Positions 6,650-29,397 of a stretch of 43,000 nucleotides of DNA are shown here, piece after piece (position 1 is the stretch's first letter; each line of letters opens with the position of its first letter). The stretch is from positions 1-43,000 of IMG/VR virus record IMGVR_UViG_3300023440_000009. One strand, written 5' to 3'. The translations under genes were made by a program, and so were the position numbers. This DNA comes from a virus. The notes under the pieces are model-generated. The model did no database searches. It was not told the origin of the DNA and worked only from the letters and a program-made list of their open reading frames with translations.

Positions 6650-6949
6650 TTATTTGATGATGTAGATTACTCTAGTACTAAAAAAATCAAGTCCGTAATT
6701 AGGGTATCTTCCGATACCTAGCTGTGCCCCATTAGAGAAGTGGTTCCATTCAGTTTGGAGCACAATATTTTCTGTCAACTGGGTTCTATTACCGACGCTA
6801 ATGTGGAATTGTTCGTGTCCAGTTAGGTGTGTCTTCGGGATATTAGCTACGTAGGCTGGCCCAATGCCTACTTCTAAGCAACCAGAAAGACAAAGGGCCA
6901 GCGCAACAATCGCAACTTTAAATCCCGCAGACACCCCCTTTGCAAACAT
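6650..6949 (-). CDS. Predicted outer-membrane lipoprotein with PagL-like lipid A deacylase signature
   Basis: From the ATG at 6949 the 99-residue protein has a short signal peptide (MFAKGVSAGFKVAIVALALC) and a lipobox LSGC with the lipidated cysteine at residue 24. The mature part contains EWNHFSNGAQLG and RYPNYGLDF. The H-x-S-N motif (His70, Ser72) followed by an N-x-G resembles the active-site region of PagL-type lipid A 3-O-deacylases, which also use a Glu I cannot place with certainty. The usual family is longer (about 150-185 residues) and not lipidated, so this would be a short derivative. The N-terminus overlaps the 3' end of nrdJ by 32 bases in another frame. An alternative is a small Rz1-like lipoprotein. 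Upstream starts at 6967 and 6976 are possible. Confidence 0.55.
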   Translation of the reverse strand: MFAKGVSAGFKVAIVALALCLSGCLEVGIGPAYVANIPKTHLTGHEQFHISVGNRTQLTENIVLQTEWNHFSNGAQLGIGRYPNYGLDFFSTRVIYIIK

Positions 6950-7780
6950 TTTCTGCGGACTCTTCATAAACAGCATTCTGTTTTTTTACGGCCTCATCAT
7001 AAGGAACAGCAACAAGAGGCTGCCCACCTCGAGCACCATTAGGATATACAGTAATACCACGGAGTCTTTCGCAATAGTTTGCAAGCGTATAAGCCAATTG
7101 CTTAGCTGTGTCTTCATTATTCTCCTCCGTACCCCACTCTGGGAGATTGATTGTTGAACTAATCCCCATATCTACATACTGCTGAATGTCTGCCTGAAAT
7201 GCGATGCGCTTTTCAGGAGTTGCTGCAAGAGACATCGCTGTCTCAATGCTATCCGGAGAGAGTCCGTGTTCTTTAATAATACGCTCTGCAGTCGGGTCGA
7301 TTACGAATTGATATTTCCATCTGTTTCCGTCAAGGAATCTTCGCTTGTAGGCGACTGTATAGATTGGCTCAATTCCTGTAGTCGTTGACGCAAGGATTCC
7401 GATTGTACCCGCAGGCGCAACAGCTCTGTATTTGCGTGGGCGATTGATGTAGAATCGGTCACAATGCTCATTTGCCGCTGCTTCAGACTCTTCGGCGTAA
7501 ACTCTAAGCCATTCATGAAGCTCTGGTACGACTTCGTATCCATAACCACGCTGAAGCAACCATTCGTGGAGTCCCATGAGGCCGAGGCCGATCTTCCTGT
7601 TGCGCTCTCGTACCACCCGAACTTTCTCGTAGGGGAGGTCTCCACGCAGAGTGCCACACACAAGAAACTTAGCAGCGAGATGTACCACGTCTCTGAGCTC
7701 ATCAATTGTGGAAATATTAGCCACATTGATAGAACCAAGATTGCAAACGTCACTATCGTCCTCAGAAGTAAATTCCGTAC
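6918..7780 (-). CDS. nrdJ: Class II (B12-dependent) ribonucleotide reductase, exon 2
   Basis: This is the 3' exon of nrdJ. Joining 9351-8571 to 7780-6918 keeps the frame and gives about 547 residues. The exon starts with GT, which completes the split codon for the catalytic cysteine: exon 1 ends RNA-T and exon 2 adds GT-ACG-GAA, restoring N-A-C-T-E, the NxCxE active-site motif. Twelve residues later lies the redox cysteine in DVCNLGSIN. The motif PAGTIGILASTTTGIEP (residues about 370-385) and the C-terminal pair VCKGGVCGI, which re-reduces the active site, are typical of the family. The enzyme makes deoxyribonucleotides using adenosylcobalamin. Its 3' end overlaps the lipoprotein gene. A free-standing start at MANISTID would lack the catalytic cysteine. 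Confidence 0.9.
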
Positions 7781-8570
7781 CAAACGTTCATATGTCCTGT
7801 CATTTCTGAACAGGCCCCGTGTCACCACGGGTATCGGACTATCTCACCACCCTTTTCAGGGGCCGAACACACGACTAAGGCAGCTTATATACGAAGCTCG
7901 GTTTGACGAAAGGCTGAACACCACGTTTAAATTTCTCGTAATCCTTAGCCCGTAGTGTGAGAAACCATCTGTGGTAGTGCCTATGAATATTCCACTCAAG
8001 GTCCAGCTTATCTCTAAGTGCCTTCTTTAGTAAGAGTTGATCTCCATACGAAAGCCGTTTTAAATTGAGTTTCGCTGCGGGGGTGGCGTTACAACGTCTG
8101 TCTACATTACACGAACCATCGTCCATAAACAGAATAGCGAGCATCTCCCAATCAAGAAGTTTTAGGTAATGGGGATCTACAGACTTATAATTGCCGACAT
8201 ATAGTCTGTTACGCACTCGCGTATACATTGGATGTGTTCGTGTTAACGTACACAAAACTGGTTGCCTATTCTCTCGATGATCATTGGTCTCATAGACACG
8301 AACATGTGTAAGGTTTGAGAGAATATCCGCTCGCCACCCAATATAGTCTTCGTGTTTCGCAAGTTGGTTACACACGAAACGACAGTGCTTTCCGGAGTAA
8401 TAAACTCCACCATCTCCCATCACAAAGGCACTTACATATTTCGTCAATTCACGCTTAGTCATAGTCTCTACACCTCCCATAACGGGTTGGCACGGGATTG
8501 GGTCAGTGACCTTTCCCCGTTTTTCGTTCGGTTATTCGACGCTGATTACTCAGCGAAGGCGCATACATTT
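7781..8570 (-). ncRNA. Group I self-splicing intron in nrdJ
   Basis: A 790-base insertion interrupts the catalytic cysteine codon. Exon 1 ends with U at 8571 and the intron ends with G at 7781, as the class requires. P1: exon GCGU pairs with intron GCGC (intron positions 9-12) with U.G at the splice site, extended beyond one mismatch by GAA/UUC. P10: exon 2 GUAC pairs with intron GUAU (positions 5-8). P7: GACUAU (8466-8461) pairs with AUAGUC (7842-7837) in a context like the T4 phage introns. P9: CCCGUG, GUGA tetraloop, CACGGG (7831-7816), followed by a second hairpin CCUGU/ACAGG. The endonuclease gene lies between the two P7 strands, in the P8 loop region. Confidence 0.9.
7875..8462 (-). CDS. 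LAGLIDADG homing endonuclease inside the nrdJ intron
   Basis: The 195-residue protein has two LAGLIDADG-type helices, KYVSAFVMGDGGVYY near residue 10 and EMLAILFMDDGSCN near residue 115, each ending in the acidic residue that binds the metal. Two motifs in one chain indicate a monomeric enzyme that would cut intronless nrdJ alleles and promote copying of the intron. I start it at 8462, where ATG follows GGAGG by 10 bases; an in-frame ATG at 8480 lacks a ribosome site. The start codon lies on the 5' strand of the intron's P7 helix, so translation initiation and intron folding compete. The reading frame is intact, so the element may still be mobile. Confidence 0.88.
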   Translation of the reverse strand: MTKRELTKYVSAFVMGDGGVYYSGKHCRFVCNQLAKHEDYIGWRADILSNLTHVRVYETNDHRENRQPVLCTLTRTHPMYTRVRNRLYVGNYKSVDPHYLKLLDWEMLAILFMDDGSCNVDRRCNATPAAKLNLKRLSYGDQLLLKKALRDKLDLEWNIHRHYHRWFLTLRAKDYEKFKRGVQPFVKPSFVYKLP

Positions 8571-9351
8571 ACGCATTCCGGCAAGTCTCATATTCATTCT
8601 CAAAGAAATTGTAACAGTGTCCAGGTTCTCCTGTTTCACACATTTTTCTAACAGACTCAAACCAGAGTTCTGGAAGCTCGTGTTCATACAGGCAGCATTC
8701 AACAAATTCAGTATCCCAGTTGATACTAATATTTGTCATATCCAAAGGAGCGGGAAAATTAAAATCCTGCTCCTTTAGTTTTTTAATTTCTAGGGACCAA
8801 TCCTTGATTTTTATAAAGTCCCAAATGTCCCCATGCTGCCAATTCAAGGAAGCAAAAATTGCAGAACGGCGTGAACCCCCTTGACGTACATTGCGCCCAA
8901 TTTCATTGATGCTGCACATAAGAGGGATGGGACCAGAAGCCACCCCGCCAGTTCGTTTAAGAACGCGGCCACTTTCCCGAAGAATTGAGTAATCAACACC
9001 GATACCACCTCCAGACATCAGGCAATCAGAGGCACGTTTACAAAGATTGCCCCACTCTTCTCGAGTATCTTCCTCGGCCTTTAGCGCGAAGCAGTTATTA
9101 TAAAACTTTGCGTCGCGTCCGGCATAGTAGAGATACCGTCCACCAGGAATAAATTTCATTTGGATAATATACTGAACCAGTTGGTCTTGATCATCCTTGC
9201 TCATGAGTGGTGGCAACGTACCCCAACGTGTGCCGCAGACATCTTCGACAAGTCTACGGGCAAGAATGGGCCAGGTATCCTCTGGCCCTTGCGCATATTT
9301 AAGACGGAATACATTTTCTGCGAATGTCGTTCTAAATTGAAACTTACTCAA
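8571..9351 (-). CDS. nrdJ: Class II (B12-dependent) ribonucleotide reductase, exon 1
   Basis: This is the 5' exon (260 codons plus one base). Visible motifs are FIPGGRYLYYAGRD, NNCFAL with the redox cysteine at residue 87, the SGGGIGVDYS substrate-loop region, and RQGGSRRSAIFASL, all expected for NrdJ. It ends ETCRNA plus T, directly before the catalytic cysteine. Without splicing, translation meets a TAA two bases into the intron. No N-terminal ATP-cone is present and no second subunit gene is seen, consistent with a short monomeric class II enzyme. The start is unusual: no ATG is available, and I favour the TTG at 9351, six bases after GGGGG; TTG at 9357 is the alternative. It feeds the deoxynucleotide pool with the nearby MazG and dATP/dGTP diphosphohydrolase genes. 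Confidence 0.9.
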
Positions 9352-9365
9352 CTCCAACCCCCAAC

Positions 9366-14617: not shown

Positions 14618-15352
14618 TTAAATTTTGAGTTTCTCAACGTCTCCCCACGATAACCCAGCTTCAGCATCTCCGTCAATGGGGACATTCATCTCCCAATTAA
14701 AATATTTCTTTGCTAACTCAGGCAATTCTCTGAAATACTTTAAACAAATACGCGCAACTTTTTCAACGTGCTTCTCCTCTACATCTATTATTATACTATC
14801 ATGCACAACATTTGTCAAGTAAATTTTTTCGGAGATTCCTTTTAACTCCTTCCTGATAAAAATTAGGGCCAGTTTTGCCAAATCACATGCGGTTCCCTGT
14901 ACTGGATAATTTCGTATCTGCCTTTCTGAGTAGTCTAGATAGCCCCCTTTTTGTGGTAGTTTCTTAAATTCCCAAATTCTACCGGTAGGCCCCCGATAAA
15001 GTCCCGTTCTACGAACTTCGCGAATCCATTCTTGATGTGCCGCAGAAAGCCCAGAGTATTTTTGGAAAAATCCTGTAAGAATATTTTTCCATTTTTCCTG
15101 CGAAAAGTTGGGCATCTTGGGGTCCATATAATAACCGTACCAGCCAGTCGCAGGATCACAATAAATTGCGCGAAAGTTGAAAATCTTGGCGTTTGATCTG
15201 TTAGCGTCATTGAGTGGCAATTCCATCAAGTTGACACACGTTGCTGTATGCTGATCTACACCATCCCACAATTCCTTGATCATGATCTGATCTTGGGATA
15301 ACGCAGCAGCAACACGCCATTCTATTTGCGCAAGGTCAACATCAAGAATCAT
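14618..15352 (-). CDS. DNA polymerase family A, C-terminal catalytic fragment (split gene)
   Basis: The 244-residue protein carries the palm and fingers of a Pol I-type polymerase: motif A (LDVDLAQIEWRVAAALSQ), motif B/O-helix (RSNAKIFNFRAIYC) and motif C (NVVHDSIIIDV). It begins exactly at motif A with ATG, two codons after an in-frame stop, and needs the exonuclease-thumb fragment encoded at 15985-17169. Unusual residues: the normal F-G-x-x-Y-G of the O-helix is F-R-A-I-Y-C, motif A lacks the usual Tyr-Ser (DLAQ instead of DYSQ), and motif C has Asp-Ser instead of Asp-Glu. The two metal-binding aspartates, the Arg, Lys and Tyr of motif B, and Phe at the E. coli 762 position remain, so activity is plausible when both parts assemble. 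Confidence 0.88.
   Translation of the reverse strand: MILDVDLAQIEWRVAAALSQDQIMIKELWDGVDQHTATCVNLMELPLNDANRSNAKIFNFRAIYCDPATGWYGYYMDPKMPNFSQEKWKNILTGFFQKYSGLSAAHQEWIREVRRTGLYRGPTGRIWEFKKLPQKGGYLDYSERQIRNYPVQGTACDLAKLALIFIRKELKGISEKIYLTNVVHDSIIIDVEEKHVEKVARICLKYFRELPELAKKYFNWEMNVPIDGDAEAGLSWGDVEKLKI
14790..14818 (-). promoter_or_regulatory. Consensus sigma70 promoter inside polymerase motif C
   Basis: On the minus strand TTGACA (14818-14813), 17 bases, TATAAT (14795-14790): a full match to both hexamers. It lies within the codons for the catalytic motif VHDSIII. It would serve the genes at 14214-14606 and downstream. Confidence 0.6.
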
Positions 15353-15984: not shown

Positions 15985-17169
15985 CTACTGCAGGCATGTA
16001 TTGCGCGCCTCTGCAAATCGAGTCACAAAACACTTTTTTACTGGACCTGTATTTCCTCTTGGGATGTTCTGACCATTCGGATTCGACGAACTAAACCGAG
16101 ATGTCGCAGTTACAGTGTTATTGATAGTTGGATGAATTACCCCATCAATCTGACGTTCGTACAATCCAATGAAATACATAGATAGAAGCTGACTCATTCT
16201 ACTACGCTCATACAGCAATTCAACAACACGCTTCTGCACCTTTGTCTTTGGCTTTAGCAGAGAGAGTGCCTGCACATTTGTTTCGTAAATCCCCGCATGT
16301 TTAGTTTCACTAATCCCTAATCTTTTAGGATCAAAGCCAATTCCTTTGACAAGCTTGTCTACTTTACACTTTCGCGTATAGGTTTTCACCTCCCCGCTTT
16401 TTAGTGTGCGAGTATACTCTTCAACTCCATCAACCTTGTAGGTGCCGCCGAACAATCCGCAAGAAAGCTGCTGTGCAGACCCTGGATTTTCAATACCAAG
16501 CAGTTCGGAAAGCTCTTTGTCAATTTCTTCTAGAGTCCTACTATACTCATCTTTATAAGAGCACAAAGTCTCCAAATCAAGAGCCATTCCATTATATTCC
16601 ATTGCAGCGATAGCAGGAATAACAGCCATGTCAAGCGAGATAGGAGTTTCAAGTTGCTGTTCTTTGATACTTTTTACTTGGCGTTTGAAAATTTCGAGGC
16701 AGAGCACCGTGTCTTTGACGACATACTCAAGCAGAATATCCAAAGGAATATCTGGAGTATCAATACCTTTGTTCCAGAATTCTGCAACACGGTCATCTTT
16801 CTGCCCCAATCCGTATTGCTCAGCGAGCGCATTGAGGGACAATCCATCAAGGCGCTGATGGTGTCGGATCACATATTCTGCAGTCTGCGTACAAAACAGA
16901 AGTTTATTATCAATGTCAATCCCAAGATGATGTAACCACATATAATCAAACTTGAGATTGTGTGCAATAATCCGATCCGCTTTTTTTAGGACTTCCTCGA
17001 ATCGATACAACTCCTCTCGAAAAGATTTGTAGCTATCTTTGTGATAAAAGACAAAAGTATCAGAGTGCCCAGTATCAGTTACCACAGCAGCGCACACTGC
17101 CTGTGAATCGGGAATATATGGAAGGTGTTTAGGGTCTTTTGTGGTCTCAAAGTCAACTGCGATATTCAC
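15985..17169 (-). CDS. DNA polymerase family A, exonuclease and thumb fragment (split gene)
   Basis: The 394-residue protein has the 3'-5' proofreading motifs IAVDFETTKDPK (Asp/Glu), RIIAHNLKFDYMWLHHLG and LEYVVKDTVLCLEIF, then the thumb and first part of the polymerase domain, including TATSRFSSSNPNGQNIPRG. It stops after KKCFVTRF plus nine unrelated residues (AEARNTCLQ), just before where motif A should follow. Comparison with E. coli Pol I suggests only about four residues are missing between this end and the C-terminal fragment. The start is GTG at 17169, overlapping the helicase stop (TAGTG). Three Cys-rich genes separate the two fragments; no group I intron pairing is visible, so two proteins that associate is the simplest reading. 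Confidence 0.88.
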   Translation of the reverse strand: MNIAVDFETTKDPKHLPYIPDSQAVCAAVVTDTGHSDTFVFYHKDSYKSFREELYRFEEVLKKADRIIAHNLKFDYMWLHHLGIDIDNKLLFCTQTAEYVIRHHQRLDGLSLNALAEQYGLGQKDDRVAEFWNKGIDTPDIPLDILLEYVVKDTVLCLEIFKRQVKSIKEQQLETPISLDMAVIPAIAAMEYNGMALDLETLCSYKDEYSRTLEEIDKELSELLGIENPGSAQQLSCGLFGGTYKVDGVEEYTRTLKSGEVKTYTRKCKVDKLVKGIGFDPKRLGISETKHAGIYETNVQALSLLKPKTKVQKRVVELLYERSRMSQLLSMYFIGLYERQIDGVIHPTINNTVTATSRFSSSNPNGQNIPRGNTGPVKKCFVTRFAEARNTCLQ

Positions 17170-27374: not shown

Positions 27375-27660
27375 ATGGATTTGACCAGATCTTTTATCTG
27401 GCCTGCTCTTTAAGGCACCCGGGATCTGCCACCACAAATCCCGGGATTTTAAAAAACAGGCCACAGTGCCAGATCTTTCAATGTTGTTCCGCCCCGGTAC
27501 TGTTCCCTGAAACGCAATAGGCTTTGCCTATAGGAACACGTCTTTTGCGGTATTCCGCGCGCCACCATGACGGCACCAAAAGATCCAGCTATTATCGGGA
27601 ATACCCTGCGTTGCAGAAACCTGTAACATTCAAAAATATGAATATTACAATGTTTCAGAA
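27375..27660 (-). promoter_or_regulatory. Structured non-coding leader, possible attenuator or RNA element
   Basis: No convincing gene is seen here; a 39-codon frame on the minus strand (27449-27568) has a weak ribosome site. Several hairpins occur: CCAGAT/ATCTGG (27385-27401), CCCGGGAT/ATCCCGGG (27418-27445), GGCCTG/CAGGCC enclosing it (27400-27462), and ATAGGC/GCCTAT (27517-27531). ATCTGGC (27396-27402) can pair either with CCAGAT upstream or with GCCAGAT at 27468-27474, so two folds exclude each other, as in attenuators. An imperfect palindrome copy lies at 27610-27627. No consensus promoter was found. Confidence 0.5.
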
Positions 27661-27663
27661 CGC

Positions 27664-27691
27664 AAAAAGGCCCCGGCTGTTAACCGGGGCC
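27664..27691 (-). terminator. Intrinsic terminator after gene 27744-28208
   Basis: GGCCCCGG, seven-base loop, CCGGGGCC (27669-27691); on the minus strand followed by TTTTTGCG. It ends transcripts of the gene at 27744-28208. The plus strand reads CCTTTCACC after the stem and is weaker. Confidence 0.85.
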
Positions 27692-27696
27692 TTTCA

Positions 27697-27723
27697 CCTA
27701 TGCTCTTTATTATGGACGGGATC
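27697..27723. repeat. Inverted repeat 1, left arm
   Basis: CCTATGCTCTTT, three bases, ATGGACGGGATC. The reverse complement occurs at 28234-28260 with 12 + 12 identical bases. The arms enclose the gene 27744-28208. Confidence 0.9.
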
Positions 27724-27743
27724 GGGTTGCTGTTCTAGGGGCC

Positions 27744-28208
27744 TTATTTGGCTCCCTCGACGATCAGTTCCCGAAGTTCCCGCCAAAGCCGCACTGCTTT
27801 GGCCTGCCTTCTCTTCGGGAGAGTATCGATAAATCGGGTCAGCCCCTCCTCGATCTTGGAAAGACTGACAACCTTGCCGGAACGCTTACTAGTAGACTTC
27901 TTCTTGGAAGTCTCTTTCCGCCCGGTGTCCCGCAACCATTGGTCATAGGCGCGGGACCGGCGCGCCAACTCTGCTAGCTTGCCGCCTTCTTCCTGCATCT
28001 TACGGAGACCCAAGGGCTTGCCTTTGTCATCGACCGGCCATTGACCGATAGAAACCAAAGCTTCAACGAGCTTAGCCCGGTCCGTAACCCCGGCATTGTA
28101 CAATGCCTCGTTCCGGGTGGCTACCGTGGCCAGACTCACAGCCACGCTGTCCCATGCCTGGAGCCAACTCTTGATAAGAGTGCTAACGCTGATCTTCTTC
28201 TTTGCCAT
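27744..28208 (-). CDS. Lys/Arg-rich protein bracketed by inverted repeats (154 aa)
   Basis: The start ATG 28208 follows AAAGGATC by eight bases; an in-frame upstream ATG lies inside the inverted repeat. The product begins MAKKKISVSTLIKSWLQAWD, has a helical centre (VATRNEALYNAGVTDRAKLV), a basic stretch (TGRKETSKKKSTSKRSGK at about 108-125) and a basic C-terminal helix (KRRQAKAVRLWRELRELIV). It looks like a nucleic-acid-binding protein. The coding DNA is noticeably richer in G+C than surrounding genes, suggesting recent arrival. The gene is flanked by arms of a 27-base inverted repeat and has its own terminator. Confidence 0.78.
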   Translation of the reverse strand: MAKKKISVSTLIKSWLQAWDSVAVSLATVATRNEALYNAGVTDRAKLVEALVSIGQWPVDDKGKPLGLRKMQEEGGKLAELARRSRAYDQWLRDTGRKETSKKKSTSKRSGKVVSLSKIEEGLTRFIDTLPKRRQAKAVRLWRELRELIVEGAK

Positions 28209-28233
28209 AGTCGTGATCCTTTCTAGAGATAAA

Positions 28234-28260
28234 GATCCCGTCCATAGCAAAGAGCATAGG
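28234..28260. repeat. Inverted repeat 1, right arm
   Basis: GATCCCGTCCAT, three bases, AAAGAGCATAGG, complementary to 27697-27723. It lies 25 bases before the start codon of the enclosed gene, in its leader. Two bases separate it from inverted repeat 2. Confidence 0.9.
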
Positions 28261-28262
28261 CT

Positions 28263-28290
28263 GTTGACGGCTCTTGACGAGGCACCTTGC
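28263..28290. repeat. Inverted repeat 2, left arm
   Basis: GTTGACGGCTCTT, five bases, GGCACCTTGC. The reverse complement occurs at 28516-28543 with 13 + 10 identical bases. The arms enclose the gene 28299-28499. Confidence 0.9.
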
Positions 28291-28298
28291 GGTTAGAG

Positions 28299-28499
28299 TT
28301 AATAATTAATCGCCTTTATGTAATCTGCATGACTGCGAAAGGCTACATGAGCAAGCGTCCCCTGCTCATCCTCATCATGACGGACGATTACAGGGACGTT
28401 TGTTTCGGGCGTTCTTTGCGGACCCTCAGGCAGGCCCGCAAGCCAAAAATCCCGGCTCGTTGTCGCGTCAAATTCAACAATACGCCAGTAAAGGCTCAT
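28299..28499 (-). CDS. Small protein bracketed by inverted repeats (66 aa)
   Basis: The start ATG 28499 follows GAGGTG. The 66-residue product begins MSLYWRIVEFDATTSRDFWL and ends HVAFRSHADYIKAINY; it looks like a small alpha-beta protein. It is the most upstream gene of the leftward arm, a place where phages often encode early host-takeover proteins. The ribosome site sits in a possible hairpin GCACCT...AGGTGC (28527-28501), which could limit translation. The whole gene lies between arms of a 28-base inverted repeat. Confidence 0.72.
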   Translation of the reverse strand: MSLYWRIVEFDATTSRDFWLAGLPEGPQRTPETNVPVIVRHDEDEQGTLAHVAFRSHADYIKAINY

Positions 28500-28515
28500 A
28501 TGCACCTCACTTTCT

Positions 28516-28543
28516 GCAAGGTGCCCCCTTAAGAGCCGTCAAC
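28516..28543. repeat. Inverted repeat 2, right arm
   Basis: GCAAGGTGCC, five bases, AAGAGCCGTCAAC, complementary to 28263-28290. It lies 16 bases before the start codon of the enclosed gene. Confidence 0.9.
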
Positions 28544-29010
28544 TGGGTATTCCCAGGTATGTCAAAGATCATCGCCCAGCGCTACAGAATTCTGCAACGC
28601 CTCGCGCGCCCTATTCTATATGCAGACCCTGTGCCAACATCAGATATGGTACAAATGTAGTATAATTATCATATAATTAAGCATAATTAGACCTAATTGT
28701 AACCAATATCTGGTACAGAAAAAGACGGAAATCTGTCACTAGCACAAGTAAAACTGTTAAAAATCTGTCAATACAGTTATATCAAGCAGTTACACTGGAA
28801 ATGTAATTATAATTATGCTTAATTATGGTCCTAAAGCCCGTGAACGATGACAAAAATCTGTCAAAATGGCACGCCAGTTGCGCCAATATCTTTGCATTCA
28901 TATATATGGAAAATCATATGTTTGTATGCAAGATGTGTGCCAGAGCAAATACGCAAAAACCCTAGCGTTGCAGGAATCTGGAACGGGAATTCGGACAGGG
29001 AAAAGGCAAA
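28544..29010. promoter_or_regulatory. Non-coding regulatory region with inverted repeat and direct repeats
   Basis: No gene is supported here. It holds a 16-base inverted repeat TAATTAAGCATAATTA (28674-28689) and TAATTATGCTTAATTA (28810-28825); three direct copies of AAATCTGTCA (28729, 28761, 28854), two of which read TTGACAGATTTT on the minus strand and so resemble -35 boxes, though no good -10 box follows at 17 bases; CCAATATCT twice (28703, 28882); and two imperfect palindrome copies (28581-28598, 28967-28984). Most of it is AT-rich. It may carry leftward early promoters or operator sites. Confidence 0.55.
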
Positions 29011-29221: not shown

Positions 29222-29322
29222 GCAAAAAAATCTTCTCCGGGCTCTTTCATGCATGCCCAGGTATGTGCGGGCACACATACGCACGCATATATTGCATTCT
29301 TCGTGCCAAGTCTCTTTAATCC

Positions 29323-29397
29323 TGTGGATATCTTGTTGATAGCTTGTGCATAGCTTGTGGATAGGCTGTTGGCATCCTGTGGACAGGCTGTGGATAA
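29323..29397. other. Putative replication origin: seven DnaA-box-like 9-mers at 11-bp period
   Basis: Nine-mers start at 29323, 29334, 29345, 29356, 29367, 29378 and 29389: TGTGGATAT, TGTTGATAG, TGTGCATAG, TGTGGATAG, TGTTGGCAT, TGTGGACAG, TGTGGATAA. The last is the exact complement of the DnaA box TTATCCACA and most others differ at one to three positions. All have the same orientation and exact 11-base spacing, one helical turn. An AT-rich stretch (29460-29515) follows. No gene is supported in 29222-29482. Confidence 0.78.

Follow-up and report, generated by a model that had tools for sequence, protein, structure and literature searches.

Two adjacent early genes of a distant LUZ24-like phage each lie between long complementary arms predicted to pair in the message

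Genomic context

The window (the whole 43,000-nt stretch analysed here, a 43-kb virus record) encodes an SU10-type portal protein (PF23899, E = 8e-123, Pfam scan), a terminase large subunit (PHROGs scan) and, according to Pfam, a gene block comprising amidoligase, COOH-NH2 ligase, class II glutamine amidotransferase and gamma-glutamyl cyclotransferase. The amidoligase-to-cyclotransferase block also lies, in whole or in part as annotated, in the leftmost gene block of LUZ24 and UFV-P2. The window phage is a distant LUZ24-like podovirus. Its nearest portal counterpart in viral contigs is 42% identical, and the portal, the terminase and the COOH-NH2 ligase, each used as a route to relatives, led to distant phages only or to none. 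Ribonucleotide reductase is encoded in two parts around a LAGLIDADG endonuclease ORF (6918-9357), where no intron family was found at the Rfam gathering threshold, and family A DNA polymerase is encoded in two reading frames (15985-17169 and 14618-15352); the LUZ24 polymerase is also annotated in parts.

Genes left of approximately 28.5 kb are mainly on the minus strand, with a plus-strand block at the far left, and structural genes occupy the plus strand right of 29.6 kb. The AT-rich region between the divergent blocks includes a perfect 17-bp inverted repeat (28673-28689/28810-28826) with AAAAATCTGTCAA repeats nearby. Five repeats at 29319-29396, mostly spaced 11 nt apart, contain TGTGGATA-like words that we take to resemble DnaA boxes, making this stretch a possible replication origin as judged from its letters. 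An 18-bp palindrome, GTTGCAGAWWYCTGCAAC, occurs at ten sites (12844, 16771, 18084, 23304, 25126, 26489, 27357, 27610, 28581 and 28967; 20 matches counting both strands, 0.25 expected), several of them just upstream of early genes, and is a candidate operator-like or RNA-hairpin element of the leftward block.

The first two genes of the leftward (minus-strand) block are each enclosed by complementary arms, forming two abutting units. Read along the coding strand, the order is the 5' arm of unit 2 (28516-28543, on the leader side), a gene encoding 66 aa from ATG 28499 or 68 aa from GTG 28505 with its stop ending at 28299 (28299-28499), the 3' arm of unit 2 (28263-28290), two bases, the 5' arm of unit 1 (28234-28260), a gene encoding 154 aa (27744-28208, start ATG 28208, stop ending at 27744), the 3' arm of unit 1 (27697-27723) and, directly after it, a terminator-like hairpin with a U run (27671-27694), all on the minus strand. 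The 3' arms were located by inverted-repeat scan and fold. The terminator-like hairpin was recognized from the sequence and is paired in the predicted fold; a terminator scan missed it, probably because three of the T residues are paired within its stem. The position of this hairpin after unit 1, together with the presence of only same-strand genes in the stretch, is consistent with both arms of each pair lying on one RNA. One operator-like palindrome copy (28581-28598, minus strand) sits just upstream of unit 2. The intergenic stretch that follows the unit 1 terminator (27378-27640) is a candidate structured RNA on the basis of its predicted minus-strand fold (z = -5.4; -103.3 compared with -79.4 for the other strand).

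Measured against the codon usage of the phage, each ORF scores highest in its own reading frame. The 154-aa protein is basic and helical in a low-confidence model, and the 66/68-aa protein is polar as judged from its sequence. Both are ORFans, with no relatives in Pfam, PHROGs, PADLOC, viral contigs or phage records, and the 154-aa protein additionally has none among PDB sequences or plasmids. Neither matched a toxin or defence family in Pfam, PHROGs or PADLOC, and no Rfam family was found at the gathering threshold. Several leads on the 154-aa protein were discarded. Its sole genome-contig match (L024, 29% identity over 90 residues) was judged to be due to chance; it sits in an actinobacterial contig, in a reading frame that by our own reading of the protein is penicillin-binding-protein-like. 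A by-eye resemblance to the LUZ24 gp2 family was not upheld, with position the only thing in common: against an alignment of nine gp2-like proteins, two of which were scanned and both of which matched phrog_1448 (LUZ24 gp2-like early protein), hhalign returned a probability of 0.2. The predicted structure was set aside (mean pLDDT of 49).

Complementary arms around the two genes

Both arm pairs had been reported in a sequence-only reading of this DNA, and their positions, spacing and mismatch pattern hold on re-analysis. Pair 1 (27697-27723/28234-28260) is 27 nt long and 93% complementary. Pair 2 (28263-28290/28516-28543) encloses the neighbouring gene with a duplex of -48.2 kcal/mol and extends weakly to 28256-28290/28516-28550 (83%). 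The arms stand 25 nt (unit 1) and 16 nt (unit 2; 10 nt to the GTG) from the start codons and 20 and 8 nt, respectively, from the stop codons. Mismatches cluster in the centre of each pair, two in pair 1 and three in pair 2, with one G.U in the coding-strand RNA in each case.

These repeats are unusually strong for the window. Each pair scores 23, higher than any other inverted repeat whose arms lie within 2.5 kb of each other; the best inverted repeat in each of 15 Markov-shuffled windows scored 15-19. The leader-trailer duplexes of the two genes (-54.0 and -54.1 kcal/mol) rank first and second among 446 called genes from the window and six phage genomes, and for either gene none of 1,000 shuffles gave a duplex as good. 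Long-range complementarity between the leader and the 3' untranslated region (UTR) is therefore beyond chance for both genes.

Units 1 and 2 have no arm sequence in common. The motif GCTCTT occurs at nearly the same place in both, although this carries little weight because the hexamer is over-represented in the window (41 occurrences versus 22.8 expected). Compared with the rest of the record, the arms match only each other, and a pattern search of viral contigs found no occurrence of them. No gene-enclosing repeats of this kind were detected in 18 portal relatives and six phage genomes. LUZ24-like and phiKMV-like phages with an early gene at the corresponding position also lack such arms: none was found around the same-position genes of LUZ24, UFV-P2 and Lyrsu03 or the gp2-like genes of six other phages (12 genes, 9 phages), the best candidate among these 12 genes (in L044) being equalled by 11 of 500 shuffles.

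Predicted folds of the transcript

Folding of the full transcript is predicted to produce both helices, nearly every position of which has a pairing probability close to 1, and the transcript as a whole is more stable than 20 shuffles (z = -13.3). More structure is predicted for the coding strand than for its complement in leader 1 (-25.1 versus -14.6), in leader 2 (-21.3 versus -16.2) and over the whole (-421.8 versus -370.8). When minus-strand local folding was scanned from 12 to 29 kb, only 28351-28500 stood out over the two genes. From these models we infer that the arm helices form in cells; folding of a message that is under translation is likewise a model prediction.

The 5' arm of unit 1 has a second potential partner, being complementary to the part of its own gene that contains the ribosome-binding site and the start codon. 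In the absence of its distant partner, it is predicted to form an alternative local hairpin with the Shine-Dalgarno region and AUG 28208 (28199-28253, minus strand; 18 arm pairs, -25.1 kcal/mol), which only 2 of 2,000 shuffles of the 5' arm equalled in stability. G28248 and C28247, in the variable centre of the arm, are predicted to pair with C28204 and G28205 of codon 2, and a hypothetical 5' arm that matches the 3' arm perfectly gives a leader fold of only -16.1. The mismatched centre of the unit 1 arm may thus reflect a double duty. Predicted openness of the unit 1 AUG was 0.00 in every tested transcript prefix without the complete 3' arm and 0.64 with it, so that unit 1 may carry a start gate. 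For unit 2 such a gate is unsupported by the models, as 236 of 2,000 arm shuffles folded as well and predicted openness did not rise. Because unit 2 shows none of this behaviour, the start gate is retained as a secondary proposal, for unit 1 only.

A related possibility is that unit 1 is a type I toxin-like message, in which a metastable hairpin blocks the start codon during synthesis and 5'-3' pairing then keeps the full-length message silent until the 3' end is trimmed. The cited passages on AapA3 and hok describe messages of this kind (PMC6733600), and the predicted order in unit 1 (local start-blocking hairpin first, 5'-3' helix later) fits. Against this, the long helix of unit 1 opens rather than closes the predicted start, the window proteins are not short hydrophobic peptides, and neither has a toxin or defence family match. 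We regard this explanation as very unlikely.

Gene-enclosing units in Friunavirus-type phages

Forty loci (593,401 bases) were scanned for gene-enclosing repeats scoring at least 19. Besides the window, a single case had a gene occupying at least 0.9 of the interior; it lies in L045, an Acinetobacter phage, and the next, L018, reached 0.7. Two other repeat-rich stretches were seen, namely a cluster of several related inverted repeats in L018 (722-4028) and, in a Manatee Spring podovirus (L034, MW202554.1, 35772-36018), a 73-nt inverted repeat with a 101-nt spacer that overlaps annotated small genes.

The L045 stretch matched 153 phage records by blastn, 152 named as Acinetobacter phages plus one Friunavirus, and for many of the records among the matches listed only the flanks up to the arms match, with interiors differing in both sequence and length. 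Twelve of these records, 24 viral-contig stretches selected by arm pattern and L045 were sampled. Two kinds of row were removed before counting. The first comprised 11 left arms that had no right arm within 900 bases; these fall in seven loci of the 24 pattern matches, in L066 and L072, both truncated at the locus end, in L063, where a second arm lies at the truncated end, and in L076, where the match is antisense. The second comprised antisense readings of units already present, 30 of the 60 distinct interiors, which were eliminated by demanding the letters of the left arm. This yielded 30 distinct coding-strand units in 23 loci from the records, the viral-contig stretches and L045.

These 30 units hold 34 small ORFs, which fall into 14 families and all share one orientation with respect to the arms. 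Arms are of three types (A, B and a variant, B'), arranged as A then B in six loci, A then B' in one and a single B or B' in 15, with one locus cut after A. Units abut as closely as those of the window, and abutting units bear different arm types in all seven arrays. A further, degenerate arm pair follows in L057, apparently a third unit from its sequence. In 21 of the 23 loci the array as a whole is also bracketed by an outer clamp, a further complementarity of 9-10 nt; in the two loci without it, L057 and L063, the array runs past the stretch tested. Different genes occupy the equivalent slot in different Friunavirus-type phages, and of the 14 gene families, three are found with A arms as well as with B arms.

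Four more records were inspected, three sought as exceptions and one with another match. Two contain ordinary units (L082 and L085). In L083, an inverted repeat with other letters surrounds 75 nt with no ORF of 30 aa (stem of -33.2 kcal/mol). Phage B3 (L084, ~985-1020) has an empty slot, a natural deletion product in which a short palindromic remnant is fused at CTAATTAG, a sequence common to both type-A arms, and still folds as a hairpin (-15.4 kcal/mol). Of the Friunavirus-type loci, 17 were taken as annotated regions; one of these lacks a unit and another has a stem but no gene. Such frequencies are uninformative for the genus as a whole because these loci were picked from matches to an arm-containing stretch.

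The Friunavirus arms were then compared for covariation, with units that have the same arms but different interiors collapsed into 14 distinct rows of 22 pairs. All 308 cells are standard pairs in the coding-strand RNA, and double-sided changes affect five pairs (12 cells). Covariation scored 0.161 here, compared with 0.082 +/- 0.010 in shuffles, none of 500 of which reached it, and slid control structures contained no double-sided change. Eight further pair types were not above shuffles (340/500). The arm rows are related, so these counts represent a few events seen many times. On the opposite strand 280 of the 308 cells are standard pairs, as the one-sided departures are G.U on the coding strand; this strand difference comes mostly from two columns common to all or nearly all rows and thus reflects descent. 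Predicted panhandles prevailed over the junction hairpin of abutting arms in 6 of 6 tandem arrays tested. Mean predicted AUG openness was modestly higher with the pairing (0.44 versus 0.31), although a left arm of any kind, once deprived of its partner, would itself be expected to reduce openness. These sequences are most naturally read as an RNA stem that is retained in the Friunavirus slot while genes enter and leave its loop.

The window units are like these in that small early genes lie in abutting inverted-repeat units, with distinct arms for each tandem unit and a single orientation. They differ in that Friunavirus arms measure 20-23 nt plus the outer clamp of 9-10 nt, compared with 27-28 nt in the window, and in that a promoter-like site follows the last Friunavirus unit whereas a terminator follows in the window. 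Friunavirus genes are exchanged between phages, and by-eye comparison found no sequence in common between their arms and those of the window. The likeness is thus one of plan only, as read from sequence, and by analogy the two sets of arms would do the same job.

Discussion

We propose, with a probability of roughly two-thirds, that the two window genes are carried in the loops of RNA stems, or panhandles, that act as processing or stabilizing clamps on the message. In this model the leftward transcript would hold two arm-gene-arm units back to back, with the terminator after the 154-aa unit, and each arm pair would form a 27-28 bp helix joining the leader of a gene to the sequence past its stop codon. 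Most likely the stem would serve as a double-stranded clamp, keeping the small early messages apart and protecting each of them, probably because RNase III cuts near the mismatched centre or because the message ends are shielded. Each message would then be cut free and left with paired ends. The sequence-only reading had suggested a panhandle of this type around a stabilized mRNA unit, and this is the best-supported of its suggestions, with pairing probabilities of approximately 1 over most of both helices, more predicted structure on the coding strand than on the other and, among the Friunavirus units, arms that co-vary and remain paired in coding-strand RNA. As the secondary part of the proposal, the unit 1 5' arm would otherwise fold onto its own ribosome site and start codon, and pairing with the 3' arm, available once the whole gene has been transcribed, should open the start; gating of translation by the unit 1 arms would follow from these modelled folds.

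The closest processing precedent lies in T7-like phages, in which RNase III processes early messages at double-stranded RNA between small early genes, the stem being mismatched mid-way. The window resembles these sites in placing double-stranded RNA by small early genes, with mismatches mid-stem. Helix length suited to RNase III and a central interruption as in the T7 sites suggest that the messages are cut free. The T7 sites are local hairpins between genes, whereas in the window the gene itself would lie in the loop of the predicted helix.

Pairing of a leader with its own 3' UTR is described, in the passages cited, for icaR and RNAIII of Staphylococcus aureus and hbs of Bacillus subtilis, where it acts on translation, on RNase III cutting or on protection (PMC3868564, PMC7821165), with a 14-nt contact reported to protect the hbs message (PMC7821165). 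Plain protection of this kind is an alternative within the clamp model, in which RNase III cutting or protection would be the step acted on. The window shares with icaR, RNAIII and hbs a pairing of leader and 3' UTR, here predicted, within one message. However, those are single host messages with short contacts (a UCCCC motif; 14 nt in hbs), whereas the phage arms make helices of 27-28 bp, two in tandem with different addresses; in addition, the icaR 3' UTR blocks the ribosome site, whereas pairing in unit 1 is predicted to open the start. In the type I toxin messages hok and aapA, hairpins are described that block the start while the RNA is still being made, and a long-distance contact between the 5' and 3' ends forms afterwards (PMC6733600). 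They differ from the window in that the window has no hydrophobic toxin, no antitoxin RNA was identified there, and the long helix of unit 1 is predicted not to cover the start.

The alternative that survives best, although we consider it unlikely, places the function of the arms in DNA, as borders of exchangeable gene cassettes, with recombination between arm copies swapping the gene and the inverted order either a by-product or of use to a host recombinase. Friunavirus arms do mark the limits of the variable stretch, 3 of 14 gene families occur under both arm types, and recombination at the arms would likewise give both gene exchange and an empty slot such as that fused at the short palindrome common to both type-A arms. 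Yet exchange by homology needs no inverted repeats, and complementarity is nevertheless kept, through double-sided changes and G.U pairs on one strand. In the window the two units have no common arm sequence, no other copy of the arms was found in the record or, by pattern, in viral contigs, and no recombinase or transposase was found among 30 proteins scanned in Pfam (ten of them also in PHROGs). DNA exchange at the Friunavirus arms is likely, but alone it does not explain why the arms of a unit stay complementary. An earlier description of the units as possible small cassettes is accordingly upheld in part: different genes in one Friunavirus slot and one empty slot speak for it, and nothing points to a self-moving element.

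Such an element, with the arms as the termini of two small insertion sequences or MITE-like units, would explain why each unit is a small ORF between imperfect inverted repeats. The flanks as read in sequence show no target-site duplication, as had been stated before; no further copies occur in the record or, by pattern, in viral contigs; the proteins have no transposase similarity (Pfam, PHROGs); and the units abut without a spacer, yet their arms are unrelated. This origin is highly improbable. Inversion of each gene by a site-specific recombinase, also suggested from the sequence, would fit inverted repeats of approximately 27 bp around each gene but is given up here as exceedingly improbable. 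All 30 Friunavirus units share one gene orientation, the Pfam scans of window proteins contained no recombinase, and the window arms differ at their centres, where site-specific recombinases need identical sites for strand exchange. Equally far-fetched are chance or neutral inverted duplications without function, since, although only one genome carries the window arms, their scores and duplexes are beyond shuffles, the two units adjoin at the same kind of position and the plan recurs with covariation in Friunavirus.

The RNA clamp model also admits a broader proposition, which we advance tentatively and at somewhat less than even odds: that at least two unrelated phage groups independently built arrays of RNA-insulated early genes, each gene in its own orthogonal stem loop, so that the gain, loss or exchange of one gene would leave the processing and translation of adjacent genes undisturbed, and a message would become available to ribosomes only after its completion. 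Among bacterial messages, long-range 5'-3' pairing is known from a handful of single cases, and our search of openly licensed papers turned up no account of tandem stems that enclose genes, for phages in general or for Friunavirus. The idea can be tested directly in the Friunavirus set, for which cultured phages and many genomes exist. If it is true, tandem gene-sized RNA loops with separate addresses and a slot of changing genes would explain how phages add small early genes without upsetting early transcripts, and arms around single early genes would provide a sequence signature for finding such accessory genes.
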